Part shown: positions 1 through 6,332 of the stretch, one piece after another
How positions within the stretch are numbered: position 1 is the stretch's first letter
How the letters are laid out: every line of letters starts with the position of its first letter
DNA from: Sanguibacter keddieii DSM 10542
GTDB lineage: Bacteria > Actinomycetota > Actinomycetes > Actinomycetales > Cellulomonadaceae
NCBI RefSeq assembly: GCF_000024925.1
Contig: NC_013521.1
Location: forward strand, 2,170,001 to 2,234,000
DNA length: 64,000 nt
Direction: 5' to 3'
Notes under the pieces: model-generated
What the model saw: only the letters and a program-made list of their open reading frames with translations
Database searches by the model: none
What the model was told of the DNA's origin: nothing
Position numbers and translations under genes: made by a program

Positions 1-507
1 GCCGCCGGCCGGGCCATGTCGGCCCGCGGCTCAGGCGCGATCATCAACGTGTCCAGCCTGCAGAGCCTGTTCACCACCGGCTCCTACGCCGCGATGAAGG
101 CGTGGGTGACGTCGTACTCCCAGGGCCTCTCGGTCGAGCTGCACGGCACCGGCGTCACCGTGACCGCCGTGCTGCCCGGGTGGGTGCGCACCGACTGGCA
201 CGCGCGCGACGGCGAGCGACGCAGCTCCGTGCCCGGCTGGCTGTGGACCGAACCAGCCGACGTGGCCCTCGCCGCGCTCCGCGACTCCGCCCGGGGACGG
301 GTCGTCTCGGTCCCCTCCCGGCGCTACCGCGTCATCGGATGGCTCGCCCGGCACCTGCCGCGCGCGACGGTCCGGCAGATCTCGGGCAGAATCTCGTCGA
401 GCAGACGGGACTCCCCGCCCGACACCAGCCCGCCCACCGCCAGCCCGCCCACCGCCAGCCCCGGCACCGACGCCCCCACCCGCACCGTACGAACCGAGGA
501 CTCCTGA
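1..507 (+). CDS. Short-chain dehydrogenase/reductase, 3' part only
   Basis: The gene runs in from before the window, so the N-terminal Rossmann nucleotide-binding part is missing. What remains shows the SDR catalytic layout: the strand ending INVSS, then YAAMK (the YxxxK tyrosine/lysine pair) and the following helix and strand VTVTAVLPGWVRTDW. The C-terminal tail is Pro/Thr/Ser/Ala-rich, with a short repeated PPTAS unit, and is unlike an SDR core. Its TGA stop overlaps the ATG of the acyltransferase gene by one base, so the two are translationally coupled. Given the neighbours (PlsC-like acyltransferase and alkyl-DHAP synthase), a role as the ketone reductase of an ether-lipid pathway (1-alkyl/acyl-DHAP reductase) is reasonable, but that is inference. 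The SDR family call is firm; the substrate is not. Confidence 0.85.
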   Translation, partial: AAGRAMSARGSGAIINVSSLQSLFTTGSYAAMKAWVTSYSQGLSVELHGTGVTVTAVLPGWVRTDWHARDGERRSSVPGWLWTEPADVALAALRDSARGRVVSVPSRRYRVIGWLARHLPRATVRQISGRISSSRRDSPPDTSPPTASPPTASPGTDAPTRTVRTEDS

Positions 508-1196
508 TGGTCGACCGCTTCAGCTCCAAGGGTGTCGCAGCGGTCCGGTTCGTCGCGCAGCGCGGGTTCCTCAAACCCGTGGTGCGCTCGACCGTCAAGG
601 TGTCGGTGCACGGTCAGGACCACCTGACGCACCTGCGCCCGCCGTTCATCGTCGTCGCGAACCACGCGAGCCACCTCGACGCGCCGCTGATCCTCGGGTG
701 GCTGCCCCGCAAGCACTCCCGGTACCTCGCTGCCGGCGCGGCCGCCGACTACTTCTTCGACGTGTGGTGGCGCAAGGCGCTCACCACCCTCTTCTTCAGC
801 GCCTTCGCGGTCGAGCGCAACGGTGAGCGCAAGCGCGGCGGGACGTCCCGCAAGCTGCTCGAGCGCGGCGTGCCGCTGCTCATCTTCCCCGAGGGCGGTC
901 GGACCAAGTCCGGGGCGATCCGCCCCTTCAAGAAGGGCGCCGCGGCTCTCGCCATCGCCACCGAGGTGCCCTGCGTGCCCGTGGCGCTCGTCGGGACGGC
1001 GACGGCGATGCCGAGCGGCGTGAGCTGGCCCAAGCGCGGCCGGCCCCCGGTCGACGTCGTGTTCGGCGCGCCCATGCTCCCCCAGCCCGACGAGACCCCG
1101 GCGGAGTTCTCCGCCCGCCTCGCCGACGAGATCCACCGACTCCATGCCTCCGTGCCCTCCGGCGCCCTGGTGCACGTCCAGAAGGGAACACGATGA
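507..1196 (+). CDS. 1-acyl-glycerol-3-phosphate acyltransferase-like (PlsC family)
   Basis: A 229-residue member of the PlsC/LPLAT acyltransferases, which move an acyl group from acyl-CoA or acyl-ACP to a lysophospholipid at the membrane. The HX4D catalytic motif is NHASHLD at about residues 52-58. The substrate-binding FPEGGRTKSG motif is near 128-137, and a VPVALVG block follows. The length is normal for a single-domain LPLAT. The start was chosen because the ATG overlaps the preceding TGA by one base. The stop overlaps the next ATG by four bases. It sits between a reductase and an alkyl-DHAP synthase, which suggests it acylates an ether- or acyl-glycerol intermediate. A generic PlsC role cannot be excluded. 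Confidence 0.88.
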   Translation: MVDRFSSKGVAAVRFVAQRGFLKPVVRSTVKVSVHGQDHLTHLRPPFIVVANHASHLDAPLILGWLPRKHSRYLAAGAAADYFFDVWWRKALTTLFFSAFAVERNGERKRGGTSRKLLERGVPLLIFPEGGRTKSGAIRPFKKGAAALAIATEVPCVPVALVGTATAMPSGVSWPKRGRPPVDVVFGAPMLPQPDETPAEFSARLADEIHRLHASVPSGALVHVQKGTR

Positions 1197-2866
1197 CCGA
1201 CACCGTCAAGCACATGAAGTGGTGGGGCTGGGGCAACGAGGGCGTGGGGTTCCACCACGAGGACAAGCCCGGCTTCGCCCCCTTCGTGGAGAAGGCTGTC
1301 GGGCTCGACCTCGGCTCCGCGACGCGCGCGAGCGAGCCGTCCTTCGAGGACGTCGACGTCCCGGCCAGCCGCGCGTCCGAGGGCTTCGTCCGTGAGCTCA
1401 CGGCCATCGTCGGCGGCGAGCACGTGACGACCGACGACATGGTCCGCGTCATCCATACCTACGGCAAGGGCCTGCGCGACCTCGTGCGCATCCGCGGGAA
1501 CCAGATCCTGCGCTCCCCCGACGTCGTCGTGTACCCGGCCGACGAGGCGCAGGTGCAGCGCGTGGTCGACGCGGCCGTCGCCGTCGACGCCGTGATCATC
1601 CCCTTCGGCGGGGGCAGCAACATCGCCGGCAGCCTCGAGCCGCTCCCCGCCGAGACCCGCACCGTGGTGTCCCTCGACCTCGGTCGGCTCCGCGAGGTCG
1701 TCGACATCGACGCCGACTCCGGCCTCGCCCGCGTGCAGGCCGGCGCCCAGGGCCCCGACCTCGAGGCGCAGCTCAACGCGAAGGGCTGGACCATCGGGCA
1801 CTTCCCCGACAGCTTCACGCACTCGACCGTCGGCGGCTGGGTCGCGACCCGCTCGACCGGCATGCAGTCCGACAAGTACGGCGACATCGCCGACATCGCC
1901 CGCGGCCTGCGCGTCGTGCGCCCCGGCGACGTCCTCGTGCTGCGCCCGCTGCCCAGCACGTCGAGCGGGCCGAGCGTCCGCGAGATGATCCTCGGCAGCG
2001 AGGGCCGCCTCGGCGTCATCACGGAGGTCACCGTCCAGGTGCACCGCATCCCCGAGAAGCGGAACATCTACGCGTACTTCTTCCCCACCTGGGAGGCGGG
2101 CGTCGCCGCGATGCAGGCGATCTCCGAGTCCGACGCGTCGCCGTCGATCACCCGCATCTCCGACGCGCGCGAGACCGCCTTCACGCTCGCGACGAGCAAG
2201 AAGCGCAGCGGGTTCTCCAAGTTCACCGCCGAGACCGCCCTGCCCAAGATCATGTCCTCCAAGGGCTGGGACCTCGACACGATCTGCCTGTCGTTCATCG
2301 GCTACGAGGGCGGCGTCGCGCACGCCAAGCACCAGAAGAAGCTCGTCGACGCGATCGTCAAGAAGCACGGCGGCATGGGCGTCGGCGAGGGCCCTGGCCT
2401 GCTGTACGACCAGAAGAAGTTCGACACCCCGTACCTGCGCGACTTCTTGCTCGACATGGGCGCCGCCGGCGACGTGTCGGAGACCGCGGCGCCGTGGTCG
2501 AGGCTCAACCAGGTGCACGACGCCGTCTACGAGGCCGCGCACAAGGCCTACGCCGAGATCGGCGTGACCGGCTGGATCATGTCGCACCTCTCGCACTCGT
2601 ACCACTCCGGCGCGTGCCTGTACTTCACCTTCGCCTTCGTGTTCCAGGACGACCCGCTCACCGAGTACGACACGGTCAAGAGCGCCATCCAGCAGGCCTT
2701 CGTCGACAACCACGCGACCATCTCGCACCACCACGGCGTGGGACGCGAGCACTCCGCGTGGCTGGAGCAGGACATCTCCCCCGAGGGCGTCAAGGTGATG
2801 ACGGCGCTGTTCGAGGGCGCGGACCCCGGGGCGCACTTCAACCCGAACAAGGTGGTCGCGGACTAG
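1193..2866 (+). CDS. FAD-binding oxidase, alkyl-dihydroxyacetonephosphate synthase-like
   Basis: A 557-residue flavoprotein of the PCMH-type FAD family with the layout of alkyl-DHAP synthase (AGPS), which exchanges the acyl chain of acyl-DHAP for a fatty alcohol to make the first ether lipid. The N-terminus carries MKWWGWGNEG, as in AGPS. The FAD pyrophosphate loop PFGGGSNIAGSLEP is at 137-150. The C-terminal block contains SHLSHSYHSGACLYF and then SHHHGVG at about 511-517, the triple-His signature of AGPS active sites. The ATG overlaps the acyltransferase stop (ATGA). Glycolate-oxidase-type flavoproteins lack this His-rich block, so AGPS-like is preferred. A different O-alkyl substrate remains possible. 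Confidence 0.85.
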   Translation: MTDTVKHMKWWGWGNEGVGFHHEDKPGFAPFVEKAVGLDLGSATRASEPSFEDVDVPASRASEGFVRELTAIVGGEHVTTDDMVRVIHTYGKGLRDLVRIRGNQILRSPDVVVYPADEAQVQRVVDAAVAVDAVIIPFGGGSNIAGSLEPLPAETRTVVSLDLGRLREVVDIDADSGLARVQAGAQGPDLEAQLNAKGWTIGHFPDSFTHSTVGGWVATRSTGMQSDKYGDIADIARGLRVVRPGDVLVLRPLPSTSSGPSVREMILGSEGRLGVITEVTVQVHRIPEKRNIYAYFFPTWEAGVAAMQAISESDASPSITRISDARETAFTLATSKKRSGFSKFTAETALPKIMSSKGWDLDTICLSFIGYEGGVAHAKHQKKLVDAIVKKHGGMGVGEGPGLLYDQKKFDTPYLRDFLLDMGAAGDVSETAAPWSRLNQVHDAVYEAAHKAYAEIGVTGWIMSHLSHSYHSGACLYFTFAFVFQDDPLTEYDTVKSAIQQAFVDNHATISHHHGVGREHSAWLEQDISPEGVKVMTALFEGADPGAHFNPNKVVAD

Positions 2867-2886
2867 CAGGGCTGCGACTCGGAGGA

Positions 2887-2941
2887 CCGGGACTCGCAGG
2901 GCCCGCGGGGTAGGTGACCTCGCGGGCTCTCGTGGTCCCGG
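2887..2941. terminator. Nested hairpin between convergent genes
   Basis: An inner stem GCCCGCG (2901-2907) pairs with CGCGGGC (2921-2927), and an outer stem CCGGGAC (2887-2893) pairs with GTCCCGG (2935-2941). It lies between the convergent AGPS-like gene and the TetR gene and could serve both strands. No clear U-tract is seen. Confidence 0.55.
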
Positions 2942-2965
2942 GCTCAGGCGGCGCAGCGACCGTGG

Positions 2966-3511
2966 TCAGACAGGCTCGAGCGCCGGCCAGACGAGGGCGA
3001 GGACCGTCTCGACCCAGGCGGCGTCCGTGGGGCGGCCGCGGACCAGCTCGGCGACCACGGCGCCGAGCAGCATGCTGATGACCAGCTCGATGTCGAGGTC
3101 GCGCTTGATCTCGCCGCGCTCGGAGCGTGCCCGCAGGTCGTCGCGGAACGGGCTGGCCGACGTGCGGATGAGGCCGCGGAGCAGCGTCGTGAAGGCAGGG
3201 TCGGCGTCGACGAGGACCGCGGCGACGGTGCCGCGCCCCACGACGTTCTCGATGGTGTCCGTGGCGTGCCGCAGCACCCACCGGATCGCGTCGTGCGCGG
3301 AGAGGCTCTCGGGGATCTCGGTCTCGGCCGCGATGGAGGCGACAGCGGCGGTGAGCATCTCGTCGCGGTTGGCGTACCGACGGTAGATGGTCGTCTTCGC
3401 GACGCCGGAGGCGGCGGCCACCGACTCGACGCTCACGGCGAGCGGACCGCGGCTGCGGAGGATCTCGAGCGCGGCGACGAAGATCTTCTGCTCGACCTTC
3501 GTGCGCACCAT
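2966..3511 (-). CDS. TetR/AcrR family transcriptional regulator
   Basis: A 181-residue one-domain regulator. The N-terminal helix-turn-helix is clear: about residues 20-50 include SVESVAAASGVAKTTIYRRY, the standard TetR recognition helix. The remaining 130 residues form the variable ligand-binding/dimer domain, including LLRGLIRTSASPFRDDLRAR. The ATG at 3511 was chosen because the HTH begins just after it; longer in-frame starts add unstructured Ala/Pro sequence. It is convergent with the lipid operon and not obviously its regulator. Target and ligand are unknown. Confidence 0.88.
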   Translation of the reverse strand: MVRTKVEQKIFVAALEILRSRGPLAVSVESVAAASGVAKTTIYRRYANRDEMLTAAVASIAAETEIPESLSAHDAIRWVLRHATDTIENVVGRGTVAAVLVDADPAFTTLLRGLIRTSASPFRDDLRARSERGEIKRDLDIELVISMLLGAVVAELVRGRPTDAAWVETVLALVWPALEPV

Positions 3512-3572
3512 GCGGCAATGGTAGCCCGCGGCCTGAGCAGGCATTCCTGCTGGGGCGCCCGGACGGGCCTGC

Positions 3573-4202
3573 TCACCAGCGAGAACGCTCGGCGTCGCGA
3601 GAAGGCTTCTCGAAGCGCGCACGCTTCGCGGCGAGGAGGGCGTCGTACGCCGGGCCGACGAGGACGATCATCGGGGCGTTGAGCGTCGTCTTGCGTCGCG
3701 GCCCCCAGGTGAGGCCGACGTAGGCAGTGCGATCCGCGGCGGCGGTCCAGATGCGCAGGCCCGAGTGTCCGCGCTTGTCGCGCTCGGGCATCGGGGTGTA
3801 GCGCGTGGGGTCGCCCGAGGCGAGCCGTGCGTGCAGGTCCTCGAAGAACCGGGCGTCGCCGAGATACCAGCCCTCGTACAGGGAGCGCAGCCGCGTCCCG
3901 GTGTCCGTGCGCGTCCAGGGGCGGGCGTCGACCAGCAGGTACCGGATGCAGTACCCGACCAGGAAGAACCCTGCGAGGTACAGCATCGGGACCATGAGCC
4001 CCGCGCCTGCGCGGTAGCGTGCTCGCGACGAGTCCTGGAGTCCGTCGCGGGCCCACTCCGCAACCGTCAGGACGTTCTGCGAGAGGAGCACCAGGCCGAC
4101 GAGCACGAGGACCAGACCGACCGCGGCGCCGACGGTATGGGGAGTCGAGCGGCGACGCTCGATGCCGGGCGTCGCGGCGAAGGTGGGGTCGAAGAGTGTC
4201 AC
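3573..4202 (-). CDS. Hypothetical two-helix membrane protein
   Basis: About 209 residues from the GTG at 4202; a longer frame reaches a GTG at 4283, 18 bases after the lipoprotein stop. Two hydrophobic helices are visible, TVGAAVGLVLVLVGLVLL near the N-terminus and LMVPMLYLAGFFLVGYCI about 35 residues later. A soluble basic C-terminal region follows with WGPRRKTTLNAPMIVLVG. I recognise no enzymatic motif. It is co-directional with the siderophore-binding lipoprotein gene and may be read from the same transcript, but nothing in it points to iron uptake. Confidence 0.6.
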   Translation of the reverse strand: MTLFDPTFAATPGIERRRSTPHTVGAAVGLVLVLVGLVLLSQNVLTVAEWARDGLQDSSRARYRAGAGLMVPMLYLAGFFLVGYCIRYLLVDARPWTRTDTGTRLRSLYEGWYLGDARFFEDLHARLASGDPTRYTPMPERDKRGHSGLRIWTAAADRTAYVGLTWGPRRKTTLNAPMIVLVGPAYDALLAAKRARFEKPSRDAERSRW

Positions 4203-4301: not shown

Positions 4302-5345
4302 TCAGGCGTTCGCGTCGATGGCGGCCTGGACCTCGCCGAGCAGCGCTTCGAGGTCGTCGAGGTTCTCCGTCGCCCAACCGTAGGAGCCGGTCGGCGACAG
4401 CGGGATGTACTCGAAGACCAGACCGTCCTGGACCGCGGGCAGGCTGGTCCATATCCCGTTGGACTCGAGGCGGGCCATCACGTCGGTGTCGACCTTCGGC
4501 AGCACGAAGACGACGTCGGCGTTCGAGAGCCGGTCGAGCCTCTCGTAGGAGAACCAGCTGGGGAAGCCGTTCTCGTTGACCTCGTCGTCCTCCTGCTCGC
4601 GGAAGGTCGCGCCGAGGTCGCGGAGGATCGGGGTGGAGAAGTGTGTGTCGGCGTACGTCCCCCACTCGTCGGGCTCGGGGGCCAGCACGGTGACGGCGTA
4701 GCTGTCGAGGATGTCGGCGTACTCGTCCTTGATCGCGTCACGGCGAGCCTCGTACTCCTCGACGAGCGGCTGCAGCTCGTCCTCCTTGTCGAGGATCACG
4801 GCGAGCTCGGTCGCACGCGTCCGCCAGCTGTCTCCGTCGCGGGCGGTGAAGGTGAGGATCGGGGCGACCTGCTCGAGCTTCTCGCGCATCGGGTCCTCGA
4901 TGGGCAGGAAGTCGTCGGTCGCGATGATCAGGTCCGGGTCTGCCGCGACGATCGCCTCGAGGTTCAGCTCGTAGTACTCCCCGATCGACCCGATGCCCTG
5001 CTCCGCGACCGCCTCGGTGTACTGGCCGGGGATGGCGGCTCCCTCGGTGTCGGTGAGGTAGGTGTTGACGACGCCCACCGGCGTGACACCGAGGTCCATC
5101 AGGGCGGCGGGGGTGTAGAAGTCGACGGACACGATCCGCTCGAGGTTCTCCGGGATCTCGACCGGACCGAAGTCGCTCTGGTAGGTCCAGGTGCCGTCGG
5201 GCTCGTCGGAGGGCGCCGCATCGGACGAGCAGGCGCTGAGGAACAGCGTCGACACGAGGGCCACGGCTGCGAGGGCACGGCGCTGTTGACGGCGGTGGCC
5301 ACGAGGGTCGAGAGACGCGCTGCGGGCGCGCGGGAGCGAGGACAT
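4302..5345 (-). CDS. Iron-siderophore ABC transporter substrate-binding lipoprotein (FecB/FepB-like)
   Basis: A 347-residue exported lipoprotein. An Arg-rich n-region and hydrophobic core end in the lipobox LSAC, with the lipidated Cys at residue 39. The mature part has the periplasmic-binding-protein type III pattern: GPVEIPENLERIVSVD, LEAIVAADPDLIIATDD, and a C-terminal ending DDLEALLGEVQAAI. These proteins capture ferric siderophores at the cell surface and hand them to a FecCD-type permease. No permease or ATPase genes are adjacent, so it is an orphan binding protein. The ATG has a GGAG six bases upstream. An IdeR/DtxR-type iron box lies about 43 bases before the start, predicting repression under iron-replete conditions. 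Confidence 0.87.
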   Translation of the reverse strand: MSSLPRARSASLDPRGHRRQQRRALAAVALVSTLFLSACSSDAAPSDEPDGTWTYQSDFGPVEIPENLERIVSVDFYTPAALMDLGVTPVGVVNTYLTDTEGAAIPGQYTEAVAEQGIGSIGEYYELNLEAIVAADPDLIIATDDFLPIEDPMREKLEQVAPILTFTARDGDSWRTRATELAVILDKEDELQPLVEEYEARRDAIKDEYADILDSYAVTVLAPEPDEWGTYADTHFSTPILRDLGATFREQEDDEVNENGFPSWFSYERLDRLSNADVVFVLPKVDTDVMARLESNGIWTSLPAVQDGLVFEYIPLSPTGSYGWATENLDDLEALLGEVQAAIDANA

Positions 5346-5387: not shown

Positions 5388-5406
5388 TTTGGCTTGCCTA
5401 ACCTAA
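5388..5406 (-). promoter_or_regulatory. IdeR/DtxR-type iron box
   Basis: The 19-base sequence TTTGGCTTGCCTAACCTAA matches the known IdeR/DtxR operator consensus TTAGGTTAGSCTAACCTAA at about 15 positions, with a perfect right half. It lies just upstream of the siderophore-binding lipoprotein and touches the last codon of the AraC-type gene. Regulation by an iron-dependent DtxR-family repressor is inferred. Confidence 0.75.
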
Positions 5407-6332
5407 CTCGGTACCCGTGTCGCTCGGGGGACGACTTCCTTCTGTTTCTGCACGTCGTGAGCCTCAGGACCGCGCACGTGGTGAGCCCCAGGTCCGGGCT
5501 CGTCCACCACCGGTGCCGGGCGGCCCACGTACGCGGTCGGCGTCTGCCCCGTGAGCTCGCGGAAGTGCGCGAGGAACGCGCTGGGGCTGCGGTACCCGAC
5601 CTGCCGCGACACCGCGAGCACAGGCGCCCCGAGCGCCAGCTCGCGGATGGCCCACTGCATCCGGGCGAGGATCCGCCACCTCGTGAAGGTGACACCGGTC
5701 TCGGCGTGGAACTGCCGCGCGAGGGTACGCGGGTGCAGGCCGCAGCGGCTGGCCCACTCCTCCGTGGTCCGCCGGTCCCCCGGGTCGGCGAGGATCGACT
5801 CCGCGACCCACCGCAGGTGGCCGGTCCGCGGCAGCAGCAGGTCGAAGGACTCGTGGGGCACGGGGACCAGCAGGTCGAGCACCACGCGGTGGAGCCGGCG
5901 CCGTGCGGCGTCGTCGAGGTCACGTAGGTGGTTGTGCATCAGCAGGACGCGCACCGCGTCGGTCATCGCGACGCCCGTGACGACGTCCGGCACGTCCACG
6001 AGCCGTGTGGCGGCCACGTCGAAGAACGTCGCACGGACCAACGAGCCGGCTGCCGCGCCCGCGGCGTTCCGGACACCCGCAGGGACCCACACCGCCAGGC
6101 TCGGCGGGATCGTCCAGCGGCGACCGTCGGCCTCGAGGCTCGCCGACCCCGACGCGCACCACAGCAGCTCGCTCTCCGCGTGCTCGTGCGCCGGCCACGT
6201 GACCTCGCCGTCGACGACGTACTCCTCGGTGGTGAGGATGTACCCCTCGGCGATCCGCCTCGGAGACTGCACGGGTGCGGTCCCGGCGCTGGTTGCGGGG
6301 TCGGTCGGTCGCACGTGCTCAGGGTAGGTCAC
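5403..6332 (-). CDS. AraC family transcriptional regulator with N-terminal cupin
   Basis: A 309-residue regulator. Residues about 30-110 resemble an AraC N-terminal cupin (WPAHEHAESELLWCASGSAS, then WTIPPSLAVWVPAG). The C-terminal half has the two AraC helix-turn-helices: TEEWASRCGLHPRTLARQF and LAVSRQVGYRSPSAFLAHFR, the latter close to the family signature. The tail is charged and low-complexity. It reads from a GTG. It lies directly upstream of, and in the same direction as, the siderophore-binding lipoprotein, so it probably responds to a siderophore or related signal and activates uptake. That role is inferred from context. Confidence 0.87.
   Translation of the reverse strand: MTYPEHVRPTDPATSAGTAPVQSPRRIAEGYILTTEEYVVDGEVTWPAHEHAESELLWCASGSASLEADGRRWTIPPSLAVWVPAGVRNAAGAAAGSLVRATFFDVAATRLVDVPDVVTGVAMTDAVRVLLMHNHLRDLDDAARRRLHRVVLDLLVPVPHESFDLLLPRTGHLRWVAESILADPGDRRTTEEWASRCGLHPRTLARQFHAETGVTFTRWRILARMQWAIRELALGAPVLAVSRQVGYRSPSAFLAHFRELTGQTPTAYVGRPAPVVDEPGPGAHHVRGPEAHDVQKQKEVVPRATRVPS

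Follow-up and report, generated by a model that had tools for sequence, protein, structure and literature searches.

Several ether-lipid and plasmalogen systems have been described in eukaryotes and bacteria. The peroxisomal pathway of animals and Dictyostelium involves FAR1, GNPAT, AGPS and PexRAP, with the roles of these proteins named in PMC9131029. Aerobic myxobacteria carry the elb cluster with its ElbD protein, an AGPS homolog and CarF, and putative fatty acyl-CoA reductase (FAR), GNPAT/PlsC and AGPS domains have been described in them (PMC9131029, PMC11948995). Among bacteria, the occurrence of CarF is described as limited to a small number, chiefly myxobacteria (Cystobacterineae), Leptospira and some Alphaproteobacteria (PMC9131029). 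The anaerobic PlsA/PlsR system is likewise a bacterial route to vinyl ethers, and PMC9702350 links the bacterial plasmalogen genes with anaerobic and some facultatively anaerobic species. Here we analyze a six-gene cluster, with an associated TetR-family gene, that straddles the edge of a 64,000-nucleotide stretch of the Sanguibacter keddieii DSM 10542 genome (the window; NC_013521.1, G000:C1:2170001-2234000; genome of 4.25 Mb in a single contig). We consider it highly probable that the core of this cluster specifies an aerobic alkyl-ether-lipid pathway, organized as two divergent three-gene operons that appear to be under TetR control and to have been acquired horizontally.

The cluster resembles the animal and Dictyostelium pathway in containing a FAR, an AGPS-like protein, a candidate reductase of the SDR family, to which PexRAP also belongs, and an acyltransferase, and hence looks able to support an animal-style ether-lipid synthesis in air-breathing soil bacteria. 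It differs from that pathway in its organization as two bacterial operons, in the fusion of FAR to a HAD domain, in having a single acyltransferase gene and in the presence of a TetR gene with a candidate operator, and a TMEM189-type desaturase was not found in an uncontrolled search. ElbD of the myxobacteria is one multidomain protein, and their CarF desaturase is membrane-bound and has histidine motifs; the cluster has a ferritin-fold pair instead. PlsA/PlsR differs in reducing diacyl lipids, without a dihydroxyacetone phosphate (DHAP) or long-chain alcohol precursor (PMC9702350).

A preliminary description of the window had noted an SDR, a PlsC-like acyltransferase and an AGPS-like flavoprotein overlapping head to tail at its start, and open reading frame coordinates and Pfam matches bear this out (Table 1). 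The SDR stop and the PlsC-like start share TGATG, and the PlsC-like and AGPS-like genes overlap by ATGA. Pfam assigns adh_short (8.2e-35) to the full-length SDR, Acyltransferase (7.3e-23) to the PlsC-like protein, and FAD_binding_4 (1.1e-32) and FAD-oxidase_C (2.6e-34) to the flavoprotein. The same gene order recurs across genera and families, and is therefore not a chance arrangement. The trio had been read as an ether-lipid unit, which holds as far as sequence can say, but it makes up only half of the unit. Upstream of the SDR gene, beyond the window edge and across a gap of 57 bases, lie three overlapping genes on the opposite strand, encoding a FAR/HAD phosphatase fusion and two ferritin-fold proteins, here termed diironA and diironB. 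The fusion matches NAD_binding_4 (1.2e-45; 156.2 bits against a cut-off of 20.1), HAD (1.6e-31) and the solved fatty acyl-CoA reductase 7eoz (2.6e-46), and a possible C-terminal Sterile (FAR_C) domain gives an E-value of 2.2e-7 and 31.4 bits, against a cut-off of 35.4. Its FAR domain would supply the fatty alcohol required by AGPS, filling a gap left in the original trio.

Gene order, protein families, retained active-site residues and co-occurrence suggest a pathway in which every substrate is predicted. The FAR domain would convert fatty acyl-coenzyme A (CoA), or the corresponding acyl carrier protein (ACP) thioester, into a fatty alcohol, while DHAP would be acylated by the PlsC-like enzyme or by a housekeeping one. 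The AGPS-like flavoprotein, the proposed alkyl-DHAP synthase, would then exchange the acyl chain for the fatty alcohol to yield 1-alkyl-DHAP, and the SDR, a proposed acyl/alkyl-DHAP reductase, would reduce the ketone to give 1-alkyl-glycerol-3-phosphate. Attachment of a second chain by a PlsC-type enzyme would produce an ether phosphatidic acid that could enter the usual head-group pathways, and the PlsC-like protein of the cluster is a proposed DHAP or alkyl-glycerol-phosphate acyltransferase. For the HAD domain, a role as a lipid phosphatase is possible. DiironB, together with diironA, would form an optional O2-dependent module that introduces a double bond in the chain, most likely that of a vinyl ether.

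Comparison with solved structures supports the assignment of the flavoprotein. The top match was Dictyostelium AGPS (2uuu; 384.7 bits, E-value 8e-114, residues 51-555), followed by guinea-pig AGPS (4bby; 286.1 bits), with D-lactate dehydrogenase (79.8 bits) and glycolate oxidase (68.9 bits, 4e-18) well behind, and the NCBIfam GlcD model scored 113.7 bits against a cut-off of 567.9. A glycolate-oxidase-like identity, the outcome named beforehand as refuting the ether-lipid reading, was consequently rejected. Residues R321, R416, C475, Y477 and H512-H514 align with guinea-pig R419, R515, C576, Y578 and H615-H617, as counted along the solved-structure alignment, which we take to be the catalytic positions of that enzyme. 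All seven are identical in guinea pig, Dictyostelium and the 17 AGPS-subfamily sequences aligned. These 17 form a single clade (support 99/99) separate from ten other actinobacterial homologs, seven from the organism's own family and three from diironB-bearing genomes, which are 33-36% identical and carry Ser or Ala at the Cys475 position in every case. The same ten, of the Rv2251-like type, retain the other six residues (10/10), a point that weighs against the assignment, since residues shared at this level of identity do not by themselves prove the reaction. In BLAST comparisons Dictyostelium AGPS scored 374 bits, guinea-pig AGPS 291 and the ten homologs 257-308. The two eukaryotic enzymes join the tree on long branches (88/35) and are not firmly placed, and a eukaryotic descent of the subfamily is accordingly not claimed. 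With a similarity well above that to other FAD-linked oxidases and with the checked residues kept, the flavoprotein is, on sequence grounds, a putative alkyl-DHAP synthase.

The membership of the flavoprotein in a broad superfamily, and the fact that NCBIfam returns only oxidase and dehydrogenase models for it, all below cut-off, would also suit another FAD-linked enzyme, such as an alcohol or hydroxy-acid oxidase, in a cluster making wax esters or free fatty alcohols, for which FAR would supply the alcohols used in wax synthesis. The alignment with two solved AGPS enzymes over nearly the entire length, with the checked residues conserved, the SDR and PlsC partners suited to DHAP-based glycerolipid chemistry, and the absence of any wax synthase among the six genes by Pfam make this very improbable, and support the ether-lipid assignment.

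To define the extent of the cluster, the best 80 of 405 AGPS relatives in named genomes (65-87% identical) were surveyed. They derive mostly from genera that we place in the Microbacteriaceae (Salinibacterium, Subtercola, Agreia, Frigoribacterium, Herbiconiux and others), the remainder including some Streptomyces, Phytoactinopolyspora, Actinoplanes and Microlunatus. All six genes were present in 71 of the 80 loci, with PlsC aligned in two pieces in three of them. Among the other nine, three had all but a PlsC match, two were cut by contig ends, one (Naasia) had FAR and no diiron gene within 10 kb, and three (one Actinoplanes and two Microlunatus) had SDR-PlsC-AGPS only. In a wider set of 21 loci, comprising 20 chosen from the 37 AGPS-subfamily genomes of the organism's class and a Streptomyces plasmid, eight loci had all six genes, in three different arrangements, six had FAR, SDR, PlsC and AGPS but no diiron genes nearby, five had AGPS alone, one had SDR-PlsC-AGPS and one was cut by a contig end.

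AGPS homologs as such are not rare, occurring in 74 of 394 genomes of the class (E-value ≤1e-95), and the rarity that had been attributed to the trio holds instead for the subfamily (37/394). DiironB (at least 60% identity) was found in 27 of these genomes, 22 of them shared with the AGPS subfamily (Fisher p 1e-21), and extending the search to 41 genomes with diironB relatives at E-value ≤1e-20 still left 22 shared (p 2e-15), with relatedness uncorrected in both tests. Among 199 Microbacteriaceae genomes, 55 had AGPS (in G973 as a partial match interrupted by a stop), 59 had diironB and 53 had both, in all 53 on one contig and 5.5-12.3 kb apart, start to start; the two genomes with AGPS only are 85% and 77% complete. 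FAR/HAD was detected at E-value ≤1e-60 in all 23 AGPS-subfamily genomes queried.

Other observations weigh against the proposed pathway. In seven of the 23 genomes just mentioned FAR was only 45-48% identical and unlinked to AGPS. DiironB was lacking at E-value ≤1e-20 in 15 of the 37 AGPS-subfamily genomes, 13 of the 15 from one genus, and conversely it occurred without the AGPS subfamily in 5/27 genomes of the class (19/41 counting weaker relatives) and in 6/59 diironB-bearing Microbacteriaceae. Three genomes from the genus of Agromyces seonyuensis (L201, L202, L203) encode diironA and diironB in the absence of FAR/HAD and of the AGPS subfamily, two of them lacking any AGPS homolog at 1e-30. 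The seven neighbors scanned at these loci (SelR, flavin reductase, PLDc_N, peptidyl-tRNA hydrolase, TRCF and two without a match) belong to five families where matched, and were not informative as a hint to diiron function.

Across the phylum FAR/HAD was found in 85 of 396 genomes at 1e-100, and its use as a marker of the AGPS cluster outside the class was rejected, since none of 20 loci retrieved there had an AGPS or diiron match. These 20 relatives (L047-L066; for instance L049:4214-10238 and L066:3952-10021) are 43-51% identical and have a PlsC match in 18 cases; the neighbors of two of these loci were scanned, and there the intervening genes encode a zinc alcohol dehydrogenase and a LarA-like (Lar_N) protein. 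Such loci possibly represent a different fatty-alcohol lipid pathway. At L205:8985-16026 (G530), diironB lies beside PlsC, a LarA-like gene and FAR/HAD in a genome without AGPS at 1e-30, and the LarA-type gene may take the place of AGPS. In genus g303 (L213, L214, L215 and L217, compared with L105-L108), diironB is present and unlinked to the FAR-SDR-PlsC-AGPS operon, and no diironA was detected at E-value ≤1e-20 when diironB served as query, a search that might overlook a divergent copy.

Neither diironB nor diironA had a Pfam or NCBIfam match above the curated cut-offs; diironB scored 19.5 bits against PF03405 (soluble acyl-ACP desaturase; cut-off 22.7) and diironA did not match it. Alignments of 39 diironB and 31 diironA sequences, picked for diversity from 72 and 71 extracted, revealed a sharp difference between them. 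In L117 numbering, which is one lower than that of the window genome, diironB retains E48, E80xxH83, E144 and E174xxH177 in all 39 sequences, which corresponds to the diiron ligand pattern E, ExxH, E, ExxH on a helical fold of the ferritin type. All 31 diironA sequences lack it, with Lys or Arg at E80, a hydrophobic residue at H83 and Lys, Gln or Arg at E174, and the pair encoded in the window genome follows the same pattern. With three ligands lost, diironA is probably a non-catalytic partner. AlphaFold models (predicted local distance difference test scores of 88.1 for diironB and 88.0 for diironA) place diironB nearest to soluble acyl-ACP desaturases (Foldseek, 7t63, E-value 7e-4; VIA Z 18.8, 3.3 Å over 236 residues), followed by R2-like oxidases and ribonucleotide reductase R2 (VIA Z about 15-16), so that the reaction cannot be read from the fold by itself. 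The diironA model gave weak matches to similar folds, none at E-value ≤0.001. DiironB thus shares its fold and ligands with enzymes such as plant SAD and Mycobacterium tuberculosis DesA2, but is only 13-19% identical to them, scores under the Pfam cut-off, has a ligand-less paralog and is encoded in an ether-lipid cluster.

As the only pair of an O2-activating type in the cluster, closely tracking AGPS in the Microbacteriaceae and present in every dimethyl-acetal producer matched to a genome, diironB/A are tentatively proposed, at somewhat less than even confidence, to form a novel kind of soluble plasmanyl desaturase that depends on O2 and has no relation to CarF/TMEM189 or PlsA/PlsR, and hence a third route to plasmalogens, in aerobic Actinomycetota. 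DiironB would then be a candidate for a new family of oxygenases, partnered by a pseudo-enzyme. Acyl-ACP desaturases, the nearest fold, act on ACP-bound chains, which weighs against this reading. Together with the occurrence of diironB/A without FAR/HAD in the Agromyces-genus genomes and of diironB without AGPS at L205, it makes a soluble acyl-chain desaturase a serious rival. Under that alternative, which we regard as less probable than not though substantial, the cluster would yield saturated alkyl ethers only, diironB/A would introduce double bonds into ACP- or CoA-bound acyl chains, with anteiso-15:1 as one example of a product, and a separate enzyme would account for the vinyl ethers found in some carriers. 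In favor of this rival, anteiso-15:1 is reported in Kineococcus (PMC7472656). The linkage of diironB to AGPS in 53 of 55 Microbacteriaceae speaks against the rival and for the plasmanyl desaturase.

Reported lipids provide a further line of evidence. According to PMC5945732, four Subtercola species contain dimethyl acetals of i-16:0 (6.9-17.0%) and a-15:0 (3.2-11.0%), which by our own sums of its Table 2 amount to about 21-29% of the profile; the discussion gives iso-C15:0 dimethyl acetal at up to 4% in Agreia, and Frondihabitans is said to be without dimethyl acetals. The type strain of Frigoribacterium faeni and strain D8 are listed with anteiso-15:0 aldehyde/dimethyl acetal, and two other Frigoribacterium species without it (PMC12823222). 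All six genes are present in three Subtercola boreus strains, Subtercola sp. Z020 and one Subtercola metagenome-assembled genome (L190, L193-L196), in Agreia pratensis (L151) and in two F. faeni strains (L162, L163), and each dimethyl-acetal producer matched to a genome carries diironB/A. Acid methanolysis also turns free aldehydes into dimethyl acetals and the FAR reaction passes through an aldehyde, so that the acetals could stem from the FAR step instead of plasmalogens; we judge this unlikely, as a share of about 21-29% in Subtercola would lie far above any plausible free aldehyde pool. A plasmalogen origin calls for a vinyl-ether-forming enzyme. DUF2229 (PF09989), a domain of PlsA, was absent from all 33 AGPS-subfamily genomes searched, a set that included all three S. 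boreus strains, A. pratensis and F. faeni L162, and was found in 4 of 14 control genomes, with contigs under 3 kb excluded. The CarF domain (Lipid_desat, PF10520) was likewise not found in these 33 genomes, nor in any control genome, leaving that search without a positive control. The need for such an enzyme, with these two domains not found, argues against diironB/A acting on acyl chains only. Weighing against the proposed pathway, most acetals were measured in strains other than those sequenced, Agreia is given as ND in a table of PMC5945732, and plsA/plsR are reported from some Actinomycetales (PMC9702350), which counters a simple argument by elimination.

Gas chromatography-mass spectrometry of Kineococcus rubinsiae identified what looked like a C14:0 2-OH peak as anteiso-15:0 dimethyl acetal, which was read as a plasmalogen sign (PMC7472656). 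Peaks assigned to C14:0 2-OH in fatty-acid tables of actinobacteria may have been misread in the same way, so that plasmalogens could be under-reported. If the plasmanyl desaturase reading is correct, diironB/A would account for the dimethyl acetals reported in Subtercola, Agreia and F. faeni, and perhaps lie behind other actinobacterial C14:0 2-OH peaks. In the open-access literature searched, no gene was found to be proposed for the dimethyl acetals of aerobic actinobacteria, nor did the searches yield any account of an AGPS-FAR cluster in actinobacteria, of a plasmalogen desaturase of the ferritin type or of plasmalogens in Microbacteriaceae. The diiron pair may explain plasmalogen markers reported in some carriers, and the cluster, as a six-gene candidate pathway with a likely regulator and operator, gives those reports a testable genetic basis and would offer a genomic marker by which ether-lipid-producing actinobacteria could be recognized.

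The TetR gene is convergent with the AGPS gene, and an ATG at 3511 looks likelier as its start than the one listed. A TetR relative (43-71% identity) was found near the cluster in 21 of the 80 loci. All 21 present a perfect palindrome, CGCTACG-N5-CGTAGCG, before the SDR gene (here at L006:9612), beginning 31-32 bases ahead of its start as mapped. Among the 59 loci without a TetR relative the palindrome was detected only at L136, where the contig ends 330 bases past AGPS and a TetR gene could not have been seen. At L124 the palindrome occurs a second time, 76 bases ahead of the TetR match, fitting what autoregulation would predict. On this association the TetR gene is assigned to the cluster, and we propose that its product represses both operons through the palindrome as candidate operator.

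Within the organism's own family, AGPS matches at 1e-60 were found in 8 of 61 genomes including that of the window, the other seven being 35-37% identical, and in none of the three other genomes of the genus; diironB was present in the window genome alone (1/61). Yet Microbacterium sp. EST19A and K24, members of another family, have AGPS proteins 87% identical to that of the window. Horizontal gain from the Microbacteriaceae appears the simplest account. A linear 2.35 Mb plasmid of Streptomyces, classed as mobilizable, also carries the six-gene cluster (L116, NZ_CP109481.1 1069074-1094732). Among 72,556 plasmid records, AGPS matches at 1e-50 occurred in 13 and diironB in one, the plasmid of Streptomyces sp. 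NBC_01450, which was also the sole carrier of an AGPS match above 60% identity; plasmids were accordingly rejected as the main carrier of the cluster.

Table 1. Features of the putative ether-lipid cluster (window positions unless a genome coordinate is given)
Feature	Position	Strand	Remarks
diironB, ferritin-fold protein, 271 aa	G000:C1:2165618-2166433	-	
FAR/HAD, fatty acyl-CoA reductase/HAD phosphatase fusion, 778 aa	G000:C1:2166423-2168759	-	
diironA, ferritin-fold protein, 276 aa	G000:C1:2168756-2169586	-	
SDR oxidoreductase, whole gene, 287 aa	G000:C1:2169644-2170507 (= L006:9644-10507)	+	start 357 bases beyond window edge
SDR oxidoreductase, 3' part (last 168 of 287 residues)	1..507	+	frame open from base 1, stop at 507
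PlsC-like acyltransferase, 229 aa, motifs NHASHLD and FPEGGRT	507..1196	+	open reading frame and Pfam
AGPS-like flavoprotein, 557 aa, N-terminal KWWGWG, C-terminal SHHHGVG	1193..2866	+	open reading frame, Pfam and solved-structure match
Stable hairpin, possible terminator without a T run	2867..2950	+	between convergent AGPS and TetR genes; -52.2 kcal/mol, z -3.77
TetR-family regulator, 218 aa as listed, proposed cluster repressor	2966..3622	-	TetR_N 1e-9, TetR_C_11 1.5e-11

A search for a canonical terminator after the AGPS gene found none. Further into the window, on the minus strand, a gene for a periplasmic binding protein (PF01497, often of the iron-siderophore type) lies beside one for an AraC-type regulator (HTH_18), at 4302-5345 and 5403-6332.

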